Origin: Candidatus Pacearchaeota archaeon
GTDB lineage: Archaea > Nanobdellota > Nanobdellia > Pacearchaeales > GW2011-AR1
Direction of reading: 5' to 3'
Assembly (NCBI GenBank): GCA_018304165.1
Contig: JAGVWS010000032.1
Location: forward strand, 1-44,586
Length of the DNA stretch: 44,586 nucleotides
The position numbers were made by a program, and so were the translations under genes. Under the pieces are notes generated by a model, which was given only the letters and a program-made list of their open reading frames with translations, was not told the origin of the DNA and searched no databases. Of this stretch, positions 3,287 through 44,439 are shown piece after piece (within the stretch, counting starts at the first letter, position 1; every line of letters starts with the position of its first letter).

Positions 3287-6200
3287 TCACTCTTCCTTCT
3301 TCCCTTCTTTTTTTCCCGCCTTTTTATCATCGGCGCTGCCAGCTCCGCCCAGCGAGCCGGTCACTTTCACGAGAAGGCCTGGAAGGCCGGTTCCGATAGG
3401 AACGGGCTGGTTCAGAATTATATTTTCAACGACGCTGGATAATTTGTCCTTGGCTCCGGAGATGGTGGCATTTACGAAGTGCTTTATCGGAGTTTCGAAC
3501 GAAGCTTTGGCAAGGATTGATGATTTGTCGGCAATCAGCCCCATTCTGGTTACTCCCTTTACTTTTCCGGAAGCGCACATTGTGTCTGCAATCAGCTCAA
3601 TGTGCCTTATATCTACATCAATGCCCTGATTTTCAAGTATGCTCTTTACTTCTCTTATTACTACATTTCTGGCAACTTCAATTCCGAGGACTTCTGCTAC
3701 TTCGTTTGCATTGTTGCTTGTCGTTTTGCTCTTGCTCACTCCGTCTATTTTCAGAACTTCTTTTAAGTTTGAGCCCGAAGTCAGAATAACATAATTAGCT
3801 TCTCTCTTTACAACCAGAACCTGATTAACCCCTTCAACTCCGGCAATGATAATTCCCTTCAGCTTCTCTTTTAGCTTGTACAGCCCCTTAAAGTCCACGT
3901 CTCCTGCCTTGATTATTATTTTACTTTCCTTCTGCCTTGCTTTGTAGCCTTTTTCTTCAAGTCTTTTCACAACAGTGGCAAGAGTCATGTGGGCATCTCT
4001 TAAGCTTTGTGATGAAGATTCTATGTCTATAACCCTGTCAGTAAAGTTTATTTCTATCGCCAAAATTATTTCTTTGAGCATGGTTTCTTTTATTTTTTCT
4101 GCTATTGTCTTGGCGTCTTTTTCGTTGTTTTTCTCCTTGTCAAGATGAATTTCCATCGTTGGGGTAGATGGAATCTTTCTTGCGTTGAATATTTCAATCA
4201 GGCGGGGCAGACCCTGAGTTACCTGCATTTCCTGGACGCCGGCGAGGTGGAAAGCGTTGAGAGTATTATGGGTGATAATACCTTCAGATGTTGTAAAAGT
4301 TTCCAGTCCCGGAACGCTTAAATCATAGACTGGCTTGTCATTGTCAACATATTCAATTTTTGCAATCTCGTCCCAGATTACATCAGAGTAAAACATTCTT
4401 TGCATAATAGCTATCTCTTCATTGATATCAATGCCTTTGTCCTTGGCCAGCTGCTCAAAGAGCTTCATATATCTGAATAGTGCAGTCCTTCCTATTCTTT
4501 GCCTGTTTGTAAAGTTGTTGACATAGCGTGAGGGATATCCCACTTTCTTTGCAGTATCTCTAAAAAGTTCCCCAAATCCGGAAATCATGTCTGTGTAATC
4601 CCTGCTTTGCTCATTCCAGAAGCGCTTTGCTCTTTCTGCCAGTTGTTTCAATGCTGCAAGCTTATAGTCAATATCGCTTCCTATATTCTGCAGGTAGAGC
4701 GGCGCGTACTTGTATGGAATTAAGAGCCAGTGCTGCCCCTTCTTATCAGTTGTTTTGAAGGAAAATATTTTGAAGCGCGAGAGCAATAAAGCGATGTTAT
4801 CTCTTAATTCTCTGGAGTTTGAAGAGCAGCGAATCATATTTCTGTCTACATGGAAATTACCATCGCCGTCAAAGTATCCGCGGAGTAATCCTGAAACGAA
4901 TGAGTCTGGCGCACTATAAGCAAAATCAGGCACCATCTTGAAGTCGGCTCCCTGCCCGCAGCAGGAAGTAATAAATTTTCCAAGAAGCGTAGAATTGATT
5001 TTGAGATCCCTGCTCTCTGCAAATCCCCTATGATGGAAGTTTTCTACATAGTTTAATCCGACAGAGCCCGCAAATGCTTTTGCCTGGGAAATATAAGAAT
5101 CATCAAGGTTGGATATACTTACATGGTTTATGTTTCCAGAGCCTTCTGCTAAGTAAGCTCCGATAAACCACCCTGTCTGAGCATTAAGCTCAATGGTATT
5201 ACGCATGGGTTTTAGCACTGTGCCCGGTTTAGTGAGCATAGTATCATCTAAGACAACATTCTCGTCCTGAATATAACTTTGCACAGAAATACTTTGCAGG
5301 GGTACAGTATTGAAGAAATTATTCATCACCGGAATTCTATCTCCGACATGTAACTCATTTCCTTTAACAGGGTTTATTTTATTCTCTTTTCGTGTTACAA
5401 ATGAATGGTTATCAGTGCAGATAATCTCTCTTCCGGATGCCGTTGTTAATTTCATTAATTTTTTATCAGTAGCATGCCTGCTGCACTCAGTAACACGCTT
5501 CCATTCTATTTTTTCCTCATGATTAAGGCTCGGCACGAATACTTCAAGGTCATGCAAAGGCAGTACATCTGAATTATTGTTCAACTTATGGTAACCTCTC
5601 TTCAGCATCAGCATATCAATGAATTCCCCTATCTTTGCTGTACGGATTTTGTTTCCTATTTTGACAATAATCTTCTCTTCCGCGCGGCAGCTCATCTGCG
5701 TGCTTGGCTCACCGAAGCTCTGTGCAGTTACTATTCCAATTCCCTCTCCCGGAGATATCTTGCTGTTCTTTAAGTGAAGCTTGGAAACATCGCTTCCATC
5801 AGTTCCATAAGTAAACTGCACGATGTTTTCTGAGGCATCTCTTATAGTGCCGTCATATTCAACTTTCAGGTCCTGAAGAGCATTAGCGAGGCGCCTGTAC
5901 AGATAACCCGATTTTGGAGTTCTCAATGCTAAATCCATTAAAGAGTCCCTGCCCGTAATAGCTCCGAAGAAGAATTCGTGGGGCTTCAGGCCCTTTGAAT
6001 AAGATGAGTAAATAAATCCTCTTGAGAGAGGAGACAAGTCATGCTTCTTGAAGAAGGGGAGAGTCCTGTGAGTGTATCCTATTTCAATTCTTTTATTCCA
6101 CAGGGATTGCTGGCCGAGAGAGCATGAAGTTTGCGTGATGTTGAGAAGGTTCCCCCCGGCTCCCGAGTTTATCATATGGCTTACTGGGCTGTCTTCCGGA

Positions 6201-8170
6201 AATTCATCCTTGACAACTTTTCCTATTTTTGTTCTTACAGAGTTCAAAATTTGCAGTATCTTAATTTCCCTGCTTTCTTCTTTTGTCTTTCCAGGTATCT
6301 GCTCAATCTTTCCGTTATTGTAAAGCTCAATTATCTCATTAGTCTCTTTCTCAGAATCTTCAAAAACCTGCCTGACACTCTCCCTTACTTTTTCATTTAC
6401 GCTTAAGTCTTTTAGAGAAATAGTTATTCCATTTCTTGACAGGTAGCTGACGCCCAGGGCAAATATGCTTCTCAAGACGTTAATTGTTCTGTCTCTTCCA
6501 GTTACCCTGTCAAGTTCTTTTATTAAAGCACCCTCTTCAACCCCAAAGAGCTTGTTGTCAAGTTTCTTGAATTCCCTTCCGGAAAATTCTTTTGGCATCA
6601 GGCACTTGAATATTTCTATTCCGGAGACGGTCTTTTTGCTGAATTCCTGCTTTATGCCTGCCCTGTATAAATGCTGCATGGCATCTTCTTTAAGGAGAGT
6701 TTCATTGCCCATCATATAATTTCCTGTAACGGCGTCAGAGATGCATCCCAGAAGGTTTGAGCTGTTCTTAGGAGAAATTAAATTTCTCTTTACATCCAGA
6801 AGGACTATTGCCTCTGCTCTAGCTTCTTCTGTCTGCGGAGAGTGTATGTTCATCTCGTCTCCGTCAAAGTCTGCGTTGTATGGGAATGCTGCTGCAGGAT
6901 GGAACCTGAATGTCTTGTATGGAAGGACTTTAACATAGTGGGACATAATGCTTGCCCTGTGAAGGGAAGGGTGCCTGTTGAACAAAACAACATCCCCGTC
7001 CATCAGGTGCCTTTCTACTTTGTATCCCGGCTGGAGCTCGTTTATTATCTCCTGCCTTAAGTCGGAGGTAATTCTTTTCTTCTTTCCGTCGGGCCTTACT
7101 ATATAATTAGCCCCCGGATATTTCTCGCTTGCAACGAGTTTCTTCATCATTTCTATGTTTAATGAGGTTACAGACTCCTCTACTGTTATTATTTTTGCTA
7201 CATCAAGAGGAATTCCTATCTCATTTATATTCAGGGAGGGGTCGGGGCTTATGACCGTACGGCTGCTGAAATTTACCCTCTTTCCGGCCAGATTCTTTCT
7301 TATTCTTCCCTGTTTTCCTTTTATTCTTTCAGTTATTGTTTTTAGGGGCTGGCCTGAACGATGACGGGCTGGGGGAATTCGCGCCACGTCATTGTCAAAG
7401 AAAGTAGTTATGTGGTATTGAAGCAGGTCCCATAAATCTTCAATAATTACTTCAGGAGCTCCTGCGTTTAGGTTTTCCCACAGCCTTTGGTTGGCACGGA
7501 CTATGTCTGAAAGCTTGTGAGTCAGATCATCCTCGCTTCTTTCTCCTGTTTCAAGAGTTATTGAAGGCCTTACTGTAACCGGAGGCACCAATAGGATTGA
7601 CATTACCGCCCACTCCGGCCTGAAGTTTCTTGGATCTACTCCGAGAAGCTTAATATCTTCATTTGATATTTTTGCAAGAGCTTCTCTTATCTCTGTCGGA
7701 AACAGCCTCTTTTTTCCTATTATGAAGTTGTATGGCTTTTCTAATCTTATCTTTTCCTGGGAGGCATTGCAGTGGGGGCATTTCTTTGTGTCTCTGGCTT
7801 TCTTTATTCTGTTCTTGCTTGAGTATTTCTTTATCTGCTCTTCTGAAATAAGAGCCTTGCCGCAGTTCTGGCATATGCTTCTTAAAAATCTTTCTATTAC
7901 CTGGATGTATTTTATGTGGATGATTGGCCTTGCCAGCTCGATGCTTCCGGGATGCCCTAAACACTCTTTTAATCCGCCTCCGCAGGTTCTGCACTTTACT
8001 CCGGGGTCAATAGCTCCCAATCTCAAATCCATCAATCCTCCGTCTACAGGATAGCCGTCTACATCGTAGAGTTCAGGAGAGACAACCTTGGCTGAAGAGA
8101 TTTTCTTGATGAGCTCCGGATTGAGCAGTCCAAACCTCAGACCCTTTATTTTCTTTCGTATGATTTCCAT
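3287..8170 (-). CDS. rpoA: DNA-directed RNA polymerase subunit A (A' and A'' fused), intein-containing
   Basis: Largest RNA polymerase subunit. Seen: zinc-binding C60/C63/C70/H73 near the N terminus and a second set C100/C103/C131/C134; the catalytic magnesium motif NADFDGDEMN at residues 432-441 (Asp434, 436, 438); trigger-loop/bridge region; and the A'' C-terminal half (GLPRLIEIFNARKIPSTP, VKGVTRMGLIA) ending in a lysine-rich tail. Most archaea encode A' and A'' as separate genes; here they form one 1,627-residue frame, and about 1,152 residues remain after removing a 475-residue intein (828-1302) inserted in the conserved GEPSTQM-x-TLNAFH block. It follows rpoH and rpoB in one minus-strand operon, with a possible 54-codon gene between rpoB and rpoA. 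Confidence 0.96.
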   Translation of the reverse strand: MEIIRKKIKGLRFGLLNPELIKKISSAKVVSPELYDVDGYPVDGGLMDLRLGAIDPGVKCRTCGGGLKECLGHPGSIELARPIIHIKYIQVIERFLRSICQNCGKALISEEQIKKYSSKNRIKKARDTKKCPHCNASQEKIRLEKPYNFIIGKKRLFPTEIREALAKISNEDIKLLGVDPRNFRPEWAVMSILLVPPVTVRPSITLETGERSEDDLTHKLSDIVRANQRLWENLNAGAPEVIIEDLWDLLQYHITTFFDNDVARIPPARHRSGQPLKTITERIKGKQGRIRKNLAGKRVNFSSRTVISPDPSLNINEIGIPLDVAKIITVEESVTSLNIEMMKKLVASEKYPGANYIVRPDGKKKRITSDLRQEIINELQPGYKVERHLMDGDVVLFNRHPSLHRASIMSHYVKVLPYKTFRFHPAAAFPYNADFDGDEMNIHSPQTEEARAEAIVLLDVKRNLISPKNSSNLLGCISDAVTGNYMMGNETLLKEDAMQHLYRAGIKQEFSKKTVSGIEIFKCLMPKEFSGREFKKLDNKLFGVEEGALIKELDRVTGRDRTINVLRSIFALGVSYLSRNGITISLKDLSVNEKVRESVRQVFEDSEKETNEIIELYNNGKIEQIPGKTKEESREIKILQILNSVRTKIGKVVKDEFPEDSPVSHMINSGAGGNLLNITQTSCSLGQQSLWNKRIEIGYTHRTLPFFKKHDLSPLSRGFIYSSYSKGLKPHEFFFGAITGRDSLMDLALRTPKSGYLYRRLANALQDLKVEYDGTIRDASENIVQFTYGTDGSDVSKLHLKNSKISPGEGIGIVTAQSFGEPSTQMSCRAEEKIIVKIGNKIRTAKIGEFIDMLMLKRGYHKLNNNSDVLPLHDLEVFVPSLNHEEKIEWKRVTECSRHATDKKLMKLTTASGREIICTDNHSFVTRKENKINPVKGNELHVGDRIPVMNNFFNTVPLQSISVQSYIQDENVVLDDTMLTKPGTVLKPMRNTIELNAQTGWFIGAYLAEGSGNINHVSISNLDDSYISQAKAFAGSVGLNYVENFHHRGFAESRDLKINSTLLGKFITSCCGQGADFKMVPDFAYSAPDSFVSGLLRGYFDGDGNFHVDRNMIRCSSNSRELRDNIALLLSRFKIFSFKTTDKKGQHWLLIPYKYAPLYLQNIGSDIDYKLAALKQLAERAKRFWNEQSRDYTDMISGFGELFRDTAKKVGYPSRYVNNFTNRQRIGRTALFRYMKLFEQLAKDKGIDINEEIAIMQRMFYSDVIWDEIAKIEYVDNDKPVYDLSVPGLETFTTSEGIITHNTLNAFHLAGVQEMQVTQGLPRLIEIFNARKIPSTPTMEIHLDKEKNNEKDAKTIAEKIKETMLKEIILAIEINFTDRVIDIESSSQSLRDAHMTLATVVKRLEEKGYKARQKESKIIIKAGDVDFKGLYKLKEKLKGIIIAGVEGVNQVLVVKREANYVILTSGSNLKEVLKIDGVSKSKTTSNNANEVAEVLGIEVARNVVIREVKSILENQGIDVDIRHIELIADTMCASGKVKGVTRMGLIADKSSILAKASFETPIKHFVNATISGAKDKLSSVVENIILNQPVPIGTGLPGLLVKVTGSLGGAGSADDKKAGKKEGKKEE
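4265..5689 (-). mobile_element. LAGLIDADG intein in rpoA, 475 aa
   Basis: Runs from Cys828 (codon 5687-5689, after GEPSTQMS) to Asn1302 (codon 4265-4267), in frame, with Thr as the first downstream extein residue. N-terminal splicing block: CRAEEKIIVKIGNK; block B: TDNHSFVT near 'GREIICTDNHSF'; C-terminal blocks: VYDLSVPGLETFTTSEGIITHN, shown here in part, ending His-Asn. Two homing-endonuclease motifs lie between: FIGAYLAEG (near residue 1000) and LLRGYFDGDGN (near 1095), so the intein appears intact and mobile-capable. Removing it restores the conserved A'' motif GEPSTQMS-TLNAFHLAGV. Confidence 0.93.
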
Positions 8171-39325: not shown

Positions 39326-40051
39326 ATGTCAGAGCTAATACTCGGCATTGACGATGCGGGCCGCGGACCAGTCATTGGACCAATAGTTCTTGGGGGATGC
39401 CTGCTGCTAAAGGAAGATGAGCAGAAGCTAAAAGCGCTTGGAGTTAAGGACAGCAAGATGCTGACGGCAGCAAAGAGGGAAGAACTAGCAGAAAAGATAA
39501 AAGAGATAGCGAAAGATTACGAAACAAAAATCTTCACGGCTGAAGAGATAAACGAGATGATGAATTCTAAAATAAATTTGAATACAATTGAAGCTATAGC
39601 GGCAGCGCAGATAATCACGAGAATAAGGAGAAAGAATCCGGGTAAGCCGATAAAAATAGTCTTAGACTGCCCTTCCACAAACAAGAATGCGTGGCTGACA
39701 AAAGTTAGGGAATTCATTGAAGGAAGCGCGAGAGGACTGGCCTTTTTGTGCGAGCATAAAGCAGACGTAAACCACGTCGCGGTATCGGCAGCATCCATAC
39801 TCGCAAAAGTAAAGAGAGATGAAGAAATTGAGAAGCTAAAGAAAGAAATAGGAATGAATTTTGGTTCAGGATACCCCCACGATCCAGTAACTGTAGAATT
39901 CATAAAGAAGCACTATCATGATCACAAGGACAAAAAAATATTCAGGGAGCATTGGATGACTCTTAAAAATATATTGGGAATTGACACGAAGAAGCAGGCA
40001 ATTGACAGGCACAGGAAGAAAGAGAAACAGAAGAAATTGTTTGAGAATTAA
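39326..40051 (+). CDS. rnhB: Ribonuclease HII
   Basis: Degrades RNA in RNA:DNA hybrids and removes ribonucleotides from DNA. Motifs: ILGIDDAGRGPVIGPIVLGG with the first catalytic Asp9, IVLDCPSTN with the third, HKADVNHVAVSAASILAKVKRDEEI with the fourth, and GSGYPHDPVTVEF. The usual second catalytic residue is Glu (GIDEAGRG) but here it is Asp10. The C terminus adds a lysine/arginine-rich tail (HRKKEKQKK). Start ATG at 39326 is about 26 bp after a TATA-like box. Its 3' end overlaps the convergent gene at 40048 by 4 bp. Confidence 0.95.
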   Translation: MSELILGIDDAGRGPVIGPIVLGGCLLLKEDEQKLKALGVKDSKMLTAAKREELAEKIKEIAKDYETKIFTAEEINEMMNSKINLNTIEAIAAAQIITRIRRKNPGKPIKIVLDCPSTNKNAWLTKVREFIEGSARGLAFLCEHKADVNHVAVSAASILAKVKRDEEIEKLKKEIGMNFGSGYPHDPVTVEFIKKHYHDHKDKKIFREHWMTLKNILGIDTKKQAIDRHRKKEKQKKLFEN

Positions 40052-41568: not shown

Positions 41569-44439
41569 ATGTCCTATATTGAAAAACTGGTGATGAAGGG
41601 GTTCAAGAGCTTTGCGAGCGAGACGGAAGTACCCTTTGAAAACGGAATGAATACCATCGTTGGCGTAAATGGCGCTGGAAAATCTAACATAACCGACGCC
41701 ATCTGCTTTGTCCTCGGGAGATTGAGCATTAAGAGCATGAGGGCGGCGAAGGCGGCTAATCTTATATTTTCCGGAACTAAGGCACACAAGCCTTCTGCTG
41801 AGGCGATGGTGAAAATAGTTTTTAATAATTCTGACAGGAGATTTTCTCTTGATGCTGAAAGAGTTGAGATACAGAGAATTGTCAGGAGGAACGGGCAGGG
41901 AATTTACAGGATTAACGGAGAGACAAAGACAAGGAACGAAGTCCTTGAGCTGCTGGCACAGGCGGGAATTGATCCTTACGGCTTTAATATAGTTCTTCAG
42001 GGAGAGATAGCAGAGATAATAAGGATTAATCCTGAAGAGCGCCGCAAAATAGTTGAGGAAGTTGCGGGGATATCTGTTTATGAAACCCGCAAAGAAAGGT
42101 CATTGAGGGAACTGGAAAAAACTGAAGAGAGGCTGAGGGAAATTAATGCAATATTGAGGGAGAGAACTGCTTATCTGAAGAACCTTGAGACAGAGAGGCA
42201 GCAGGCCCTTAAGTTCAGGAAGCTGGAGGAAAACCAGAAAAAATACAAGGCAAGCATAATCTCAAAGAATGTTGAGAGCAGGGACAAGGAAGTCAAAAGA
42301 GTCAATGAAGAGATTGAGAAGAATATGAAACTCAGGGAAAAACTAAGAGAGAAAATAGCAAAGCTCCAGGAGTCTATAAGGAAAAAGGAGGAAGAAGTAG
42401 CAGGCATTAATAAGTACACTCAGGAATCATCAGGAGTGGAAATGGAAGGCCTGCATAATAAGATTTCTGATTATAGAGCCGAGATGGCGGGGTCAACCGT
42501 AAGGAAGGACAACAGCGAGATGAAACTTGACGAAGTGAGGAGAAGAAAGGAAAGGACGGAGGAGCATCTTAGAGTTTTTGAGAAGGAAGTGGCTGAGCTG
42601 AAGAAGAAATCTCCAATAGTTGCAGAAAGGCTGAAAGAACTTGAGGAAAAGAAAGCTGAGCTTGCCGAAGTAGAATCTAAGAGGAAGAGGCTCTATGGAG
42701 TAAGGAATGAGCTCCATTTCCTTAAGGAAAGAGTCAAGGACAAGCAAAACCAGAGCCAGAAGCTTAAGAATGATATGGAATTTTCTTTAAGGGAAGCTGA
42801 CAGGATGGCCGGAGGGTTGATGGATAAGGATGCAGAAGCCTGCAGGAGCAGGATTTTAAGGATACAAGGGGAAATTGAAACAAAGCAGAAAGAATTATTT
42901 GATGCTGAAAATTCAAGGCTTGAGCTTGAGAAACAGGTTTCTGTGTGGGAGAGCGAGGTGAGCAGGAGCAGGGAGATAAAGGAAGAGGTAAGCAGGATTG
43001 ATGTATGCCCTTTGTGCAAGACAAAGATGACCCGGCAGCACCGGGAGGAAGTTTATTCTGAATGCGACAGAAGGATGAATAATGCACAAAAGAATATTGA
43101 TAATAAAGTATCATTTGTTAAAGGAAAGGCAGAGTTCGTCGGAAAGATTAAAGCAGAAATAAATAAGCTGAAAGAAAGAATGGAGAATTCCAGAATTGAG
43201 CTTGTTAAGCTGGAGAATGTTAATGAAAAGAAGGAGAGAGTCAAGAAATCTTATTCTGAAGAGAAACTCCTTGAAAGAGAGCTTGAAGAGCTGAACAAAA
43301 AACTTAAGTCTCTTGAAGAAGATTATGTTGATATTGACAGGTTTGATGATATTTACGAAAGACTTCTTCATGAGATAGAGGATATATCTGCGCGGACAGA
43401 GGATAATCTTGATACTGAAATAAGGTACAAGCAGAAGGAGCTTGACAGGCTTAGAGACATAATAAAACAGGCTGCAAGAGATGAGGAGGAGCTTGGAGCA
43501 GAGATACTTGAATTAGAAGAGTCTCTTGAAAATACTTCTTCCGAACTTGAAGACAGCGAGAAGAAAGAGAGAGAGCTGCAGGCAAAATTCAAGAAGCTCT
43601 TTGAAAAGAGGACTTCCCTGCAGATGGCAATACAGGAGGAAGTAAAGGAATCTCTTGAAGTCAAGAATGAGTCAGACAGGAATGATGATAGTACTAATAA
43701 TTTCAAAATAGACAAGGCGAAGCTTGATGCAGAAATTGAGAGCTTAACGATTGAGCTGAAAGAATTTGAAGGGATAGAAATAATTAAAGCATCAATTAAT
43801 GGGCTGCAGGAAAGGCTGCAAAAAACCAACGAGGAATTATCAAGCGTAACTCTCGGAGGGGTTAATTTAAGGGCATTGGAAGTTTATGAAGACATAAAGA
43901 AGCAGTATGAGGAAGTAGCCCAGAAGGCAGAAACTTTGACTAAGGAAAAGGAGGAGATACTTAAAATCATAAGCGAGATAGACAGGAAAAAGAAAAAGAC
44001 ATTCATGAAGACACTTGAGGCAATTAATGAAATATTTACAAGAAATTTCATACAGCTTTCCACTAAGGGAGAAGCGTATCTTGAGTTAGAAAATCAGGAA
44101 GATCCATTTGCTGGAGGGCTGAATATAGTTATCAAAGTAGCAAGGGGAAAGTATTTTGATGTCTCAAGCTTGAGTGGAGGAGAGAAAACTCTGGTAGCTC
44201 TGTCACTGATATTTGCAATTCAGGAATACAAGCCATACTCATTCTATATTTTTGATGAAGTTGACGCTGCCCTTGACAAGCGCAACAGCGAAAAACTCGC
44301 CAGTTTGGTTAAGAAGCACATGAAGAGCGGGCAATATATAATTGTGACGCACAACGACGCCATCATAACAGAATCATCCCTGCTCTATGGTGTCAGCATG
44401 CAGGAAGGAGTGAGCAAGGTACTCTCACTAAAAATTTAA
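41569..44439 (+). CDS. SMC-like ATPase with central zinc hook
   Basis: N-terminal SMC head: KGFKSFASETEVPFENGMNTIVGVNGAGKSN (in part; Walker A residues 32-40) and FNIVLQGEI (Q-loop side). The C-terminal head has signature LSGGEK at 868-873 and Walker B FYIFDEVDAALD (Asp896, Glu897) with ITHND-like ending. The 956 residues are mostly coiled coil, and the middle is not an SMC hinge but a Rad50-type hook Cys480-Pro-Leu-Cys483 flanked by H-R-E-E. Known SMCs are about 1,170 residues with a ~150-residue hinge. It may be a hook-bearing SMC or a Rad50 relative with an SMC-like head. Promoter: TATA tttaaatata, about 26 bp upstream. Confidence 0.85.
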   Translation: MSYIEKLVMKGFKSFASETEVPFENGMNTIVGVNGAGKSNITDAICFVLGRLSIKSMRAAKAANLIFSGTKAHKPSAEAMVKIVFNNSDRRFSLDAERVEIQRIVRRNGQGIYRINGETKTRNEVLELLAQAGIDPYGFNIVLQGEIAEIIRINPEERRKIVEEVAGISVYETRKERSLRELEKTEERLREINAILRERTAYLKNLETERQQALKFRKLEENQKKYKASIISKNVESRDKEVKRVNEEIEKNMKLREKLREKIAKLQESIRKKEEEVAGINKYTQESSGVEMEGLHNKISDYRAEMAGSTVRKDNSEMKLDEVRRRKERTEEHLRVFEKEVAELKKKSPIVAERLKELEEKKAELAEVESKRKRLYGVRNELHFLKERVKDKQNQSQKLKNDMEFSLREADRMAGGLMDKDAEACRSRILRIQGEIETKQKELFDAENSRLELEKQVSVWESEVSRSREIKEEVSRIDVCPLCKTKMTRQHREEVYSECDRRMNNAQKNIDNKVSFVKGKAEFVGKIKAEINKLKERMENSRIELVKLENVNEKKERVKKSYSEEKLLERELEELNKKLKSLEEDYVDIDRFDDIYERLLHEIEDISARTEDNLDTEIRYKQKELDRLRDIIKQAARDEEELGAEILELEESLENTSSELEDSEKKERELQAKFKKLFEKRTSLQMAIQEEVKESLEVKNESDRNDDSTNNFKIDKAKLDAEIESLTIELKEFEGIEIIKASINGLQERLQKTNEELSSVTLGGVNLRALEVYEDIKKQYEEVAQKAETLTKEKEEILKIISEIDRKKKKTFMKTLEAINEIFTRNFIQLSTKGEAYLELENQEDPFAGGLNIVIKVARGKYFDVSSLSGGEKTLVALSLIFAIQEYKPYSFYIFDEVDAALDKRNSEKLASLVKKHMKSGQYIIVTHNDAIITESSLLYGVSMQEGVSKVLSLKI

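Follow-up and report, generated by a model that had tools for sequence, protein, structure and literature searches.

A putative condensin SMC protein with a Rad50-type zinc hook in place of the hinge in archaea of the order Pacearchaeales

The hook-SMC gene and its product

The window, that is, the whole stretch of DNA analysed here, comprises 44,586 nucleotides of a contig from a Candidatus Pacearchaeota archaeon. An intact open reading frame (41569..44439, plus strand), with an ATG start and no internal stop codons, encodes a protein of 956 aa with SMC ATPase heads, antiparallel coiled-coil arms, and a Rad50-type hook at the apex, hereafter called hook-SMC. The N-terminal half of the ATPase head (approximately residues 1-165; 41569..42063, plus strand) matches Pfam SMC_N and has 5xei, 5xns, and 4i99 as its best PDB matches. 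It contains the Walker A motif GVNGAGKS (residues 32-39; 41662..41685, plus strand), which is read from the sequence and conserved among the family members. The N-terminal coiled-coil arm (approximately residues 166-476; 42064..42996, plus strand) is seen as helices in the full-length model, and a match to TIGR02169 reaches residue 473. It leads into the zinc-hook motif D-x-C-P-L-C-x4-T-x2-H (residues 478-491; 43000..43041, plus strand), with Cys480 and Cys483 at 43006-43017. The C-terminal arm, again based on helices of the full-length model, follows at approximately residues 492-815 (43042..44013, plus strand). The C-terminal half of the head (approximately residues 816-956; 44014..44436, plus strand) is matched by the SMC C-head structures 1e69, 3kta, and 1xew and harbors the signature LSGGEK (residues 868-873; 44170-44187, plus strand) and the Walker B motif IFDEVDAALD (44248-44277, plus strand), in which DEVDAALD corresponds to residues 896-903.

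The gene rnhB (39326..40051, plus strand; Pfam RNase_HII, 160 bits), encoding RNase HII, is a conserved neighbor of hook-SMC genes. An RNase HII-like frame lies no more than a few kb from smc, in the window as in each of the six relatives inspected, but it is probably not part of the function. Elsewhere in the window, RNA polymerase subunit A is encoded by a single frame (3287-8170, minus strand) that includes Rpb1 domains 1-5 and is interrupted, at about residues 846-1302, by an intein containing a LAGLIDADG domain.

The head motifs (Walker A, LSGGEK, DEVDAALD) had been described as SMC-like in an earlier note on this DNA, and HMM scores, PDB matches, and phylogeny all agree with this assignment. 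Against the NCBIfam models, hook-SMC scored 547 bits with SMC_prok_A and 517 bits with SMC_prok_B, compared to at most 111 bits with the Rad50 models (cut-offs of 700 bits or more) and 106 bits with ASRP. The SMC_prok_A score is below the equivalog cut-off of 729 bits, and the hinge part of this model is left unmatched by hook-SMC. The top PDB matches are the SMC heads 5xei, 5xns, 4i99, and 3zgx, with the first Rad50 appearing after 45 entries for SMC proteins. The ABC head is bipartite in the manner of SMC proteins, with Walker A in the N-terminal part and the signature and Walker B in the C-terminal part. In a tree of the heads, the SMC proteins of the order formed one group (support 100/100) that was joined to the hinge-bearing SMCs of the class. 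When the organism's own Rad50 was included, it was placed on a very long branch far from hook-SMC, so that the heads fall outside Rad50. Based on their sequence, the heads of hook-SMC are those of a true SMC protein.

The 956 residues contain a single CxxC, Cys480-Pro-Leu-Cys483, at the exact center of the chain; when these residues were shuffled 20,000 times, 0.05% of the shuffled chains had a CxxC within 10 residues of the center. Neither hook cysteine varies among the 88 hook sequences (with a few genomes represented twice under different names), and each of the 40 among them that had been fetched regardless of the hook has exactly one CxxC, which is central. When 14 sequences were aligned over their central 127 residues, the only invariant positions were D478, C480, P481, C483, T488, and H491, which form an island amid rapidly diverging coiled coil. 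With a profile of the central stretch as query, the three best PDB matches, 6zff, 1l8d, and 5gox, were all structures of Rad50 hooks, and CPLCqtklTeeH was aligned against CPVCGRELTDEH. The Pfam model Rad50_zn_hook (PF04423) scored 23.2 bits on the stretch, 1 bit under its cut-off of 24.3. AlphaFold predicted a helix-hook-helix arrangement (pLDDT 94.6), for which the first two PDB matches found by Foldseek were chains of 1l8d, the Rad50 Zn hook; the E-values were modest (3e-3), as expected of a coiled-coil hairpin. The full-length model was weak (pLDDT 71, pTM 0.31) and shows helices 422-474 and 489-585 flanking the hook. No hinge fold was predicted between residues 400 and 560 in either the hook-hairpin or the full-length model, and the hinge domain PF06470 was absent from the protein in a Pfam search. 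Judged by profiles and predicted models, the apex of hook-SMC is homologous to the Rad50 hook. Sequence, profile, AlphaFold, and Foldseek thus bear out the earlier proposal of a CPLC hook at the exact center of the chain, within a coiled coil and without an SMC hinge.

The spacing between heads and apex is tightly held, yet shorter than in hinge-bearing SMCs. Walker A and hook are separated by 448 residues in 34 of 53 cases, and hook and signature by 384 residues in 36 of 53. The corresponding medians for hinge-SMCs are 486 residues from Walker A to the start of the hinge and 438 from its end to the signature, and the arms of hook-SMC are ∼40-55 residues shorter per side than those of the hinge-SMCs of the class. 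Arms of B. subtilis Smc are likewise under strong length constraints (PMC5344682). The hinge-bearing SMCs of the class mostly comprise ∼1140-1170 aa, and the suggestion that the 956-aa protein is ∼200 residues shorter than usual SMCs is right in this comparison.

Distribution of the hook and remodeling of the apex

The hook-SMC trait, which the earlier note had seen in a single protein, spans nearly all of the order. Twelve of 14 named relatives are labeled Candidatus Pacearchaeota, and the other two carry Nanoarchaeota and Aenigmarchaeum labels. In the family to which the window belongs, a homologue match was obtained in 108 of 112 genomes, mostly at full length (about 950-960 aa). Across the order, 192 of 200 genomes gave an SMC match, and none of the 200 contained PF06470 above cut-off. 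In a draw of 281 genomes from the class, all 200 hinge-positive genomes were located outside the order, from which 219 had been sampled. Of the remaining 19 hinge-negative genomes outside the order, 12 were without an SMC match, 3 gave a weak match, and 4 a partial or one-sided one. With 200 of 219 genomes hinge-positive outside the order and 0 of 200 within it, hinge loss follows the boundary of the order.

A few observations from this survey concern individual families and genomes. In each of the nine genomes sampled from the class family f10, neither an SMC match nor a hinge was found; these include genomes of 88-95% completeness, and a loss of SMC is possible in this family. One genome of the window's family encodes a second, 775-aa SMC-like protein beside hook-SMC (G048:C22:16352-18604), with 37% identity over the C-head. 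Three SMC genes contain inteins of ∼520-530 aa within Walker A, between Lys and Ser of GSGK|S. SMC frames of ∼1485-1520 aa in other members of the order and of ∼1650-1690 aa in several hinge-bearing relatives of the class (six genomes with long frames) suggest similar Walker A inteins.

Some families of the order have a different apex, a feature that the earlier note had not seen. In f75, f4, and part of f3 (eight sequences from eight genomes), the SMC proteins comprise only ∼780-810 aa and have neither a hinge nor any CxxC. Judging from the sequence, their center is a short helical-looking domain, representing a third, undescribed type of apex. With hhalign, the hookless apices of f3 and f4 proved to be homologous (96%), but no likeness was detected between them and the apex of f75, nor with the hook or hinge. 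In the tree of the heads, f75 branches first (97/92). A single clade of all hook-bearing heads, as expected for a single origin, was rejected by the AU test (p = 2e-4), which likewise rejected the grouping of all SMCs without a hook in one clade (p = 0.0015). The topology would fit either several losses of the hook or an exchange of apex modules. A scan of viral contigs for a viral source gave weak matches to head fragments only. The occurrence of hookless and hingeless SMCs of ∼800 aa in some families indicates that the apex was remodeled repeatedly. Relatives in the families f3, f4, and f75 manage without the hook, which is therefore not indispensable across the order. We consider it likely that the apex of SMC proteins can be exchanged as a module in the Pacearchaeales. 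The hinge of the ancestor would have been lost, with a Rad50-type hook present in most families and a third, helical apex on much shorter arms in f75, f4, and part of f3. The condensin of the order would then function in the absence of a hinge, whether or not its dimer is bridged by metal.

Partner proteins and proposed function of hook-SMC

The organism's own genome, which is 79% complete, encodes a ScpA of 327 aa (a weak match of 44 bits), a ScpB (G000:C17:7133-7567), and a Mre11 of 402 aa, the gene of which adjoins a separate rad50 whose product carries a CPIC hook. Hence, the search for ScpA, ScpB, and Mre11 proposed in the earlier note found all three. Among the 200 genomes of the order, ScpA was detected in 179, ScpB in 185, and Mre11 in 187. 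The tblastn matches to Mre11 across these genomes often span one stop codon, probably near the C-terminal end (frame about 390 aa). The hook-SMC gene is not located beside mre11, which instead adjoins the true rad50. We detected a single SMC locus in the 79% complete genome; neither a second one, which could be missing from the assembly, nor a PF06470 hinge anywhere was found. This agrees with the idea that hook-SMC may be the only SMC of the organism. Three other SMC_N matches were rejected as SMCs: the one on contig C26 is the Rad50 beside Mre11, and those on C35 and C34 are ABC transporters. Given the separate Mre11-Rad50 pair and the presence of ScpA and ScpB, hook-SMC appears as the only SMC found, accompanied by a full set of condensin partners, rather than as a Rad50. 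Archaeal ScpA generally does not bind ScpB (PMC7055376), and ScpA may therefore be the only true partner of hook-SMC.

Taken together, hook-SMC is very likely the SMC subunit of a condensin (SMC-ScpA-ScpB) that has lost its hinge and in which the role of the hinge has passed to a Rad50-type zinc hook. A single Zn ion would be coordinated by four cysteines, two from the CPLC hook of each monomer, and the Zn-bridged pair of hooks would hold together a stable V- or rod-shaped homodimer. ATP-dependent engagement of the heads, together with a bridging ScpA, would then complete a ring by which DNA is held or extruded, in the manner of an ordinary prokaryotic condensin. We infer zinc binding, dimerization, and loop extrusion for hook-SMC. 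Such a hook condensin would work without hinge-specific functions, for example DNA binding by the hinge or a hinge gate. Hook-SMC resembles prokaryotic condensin SMCs in the sequence and motifs of its heads, its long antiparallel arms, and the presence of ScpA and ScpB in the genome, but differs from them by the Rad50-type hook instead of a hinge and by its length (∼956 versus ∼1160 aa). The SMC head clade and the loss of the hinge are shared with a hinge-less SMC of marine actinobacteria (PMC12153180), which, however, is without the CXXC that is present and invariant in hook-SMC.

Rad50 hooks have reportedly been proposed to join separate Mre11-Rad50 complexes (Hopfner 2002, cited in PMC5344682). 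In analogy, the hook could tether different SMC complexes and thereby bridge two DNA segments, each complex being held together by heads and kleisin. The geometry of the hook alone does not separate such an inter-complex mode from one within the dimer. But high-speed atomic force microscopy found Rad50 hooks to be a constitutive joint within the dimer that is interchangeable with the MukB hinge (PMC6969161), and a hook functionally stands in for the hinge in B. subtilis Smc (PMC5344682). We therefore regard tethering as unlikely. Even less probable is a Rad50 paralogue acting in DNA repair instead of chromosome organization. Hook-SMC does share with Rad50/SbcC the central CPxC zinc hook at the tip of the coiled coil, including the downstream T..H, but its heads are those of an SMC, and Mre11 lies beside the organism's own Rad50 instead. 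A separate Mre11-Rad50 pair is found in the genome and in the order, and ScpA and ScpB were kept. A Rad50-like hook-SMC would mean that a whole archaeal order possesses ScpA and ScpB but not a single SMC.

Membership in the ASRPs (coalescin ClsN, Sph1/2), a known family of archaeal SMC-superfamily ATPases that also carry a zinc hook (PMC9389158), is highly improbable. Hook-SMC does match the NCBIfam ASRP model, but its 106 bits are far below both the cut-off of 300 and the SMC score of 547, and the heads of the order join the hinge-SMCs. The ASRPs are a distinct family. Finally, the source of the sequence resembles a metagenome-assembled genome (42 contigs, 79% complete), in which an error of assembly or gene model might have fused an SMC to a Rad50 fragment. 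The chance of such an artefact is practically nil: more than 100 independent genomes encode a one-piece homologue of equal length with its hook at the same position, and this conservation already refutes it.

Implications for the role of the SMC hinge

Our preferred reading, a condensin SMC with a hook for its hinge, has a counterpart in laboratory engineering. B. subtilis Smc carrying the hook of P. furiosus Rad50, the Smc(Zh) chimera, likewise combines the heads and arms of an SMC with a Rad50 hook and supports normal growth on rich medium (PMC5344682). Conversely, Rad50 with the MukB hinge works in fission yeast (PMC6969161). The chimera is man-made, whereas hook-SMC occurs naturally, is conserved, and seems to be the sole SMC in most of the order. 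A search of published, mostly open-access papers did not turn up a natural hook-bearing SMC, and nature appears to have made an exchange known so far from engineering.

Possible roles of the SMC hinge beyond joining the arms, such as DNA binding, entry gate, and signaling to the heads, have so far been probed by engineered swaps. An order with a hook on the only SMC found, which has kept ScpA/ScpB and a separate Mre11-Rad50, represents a natural long-term experiment. It implies that the hinge-specific functions would be dispensable in a working condensin. As a practical consequence, search models that require a hinge will miss hook-SMCs. The order also indicates that the apex of an SMC is exchangeable in evolution, and it offers small orthologues for testing.
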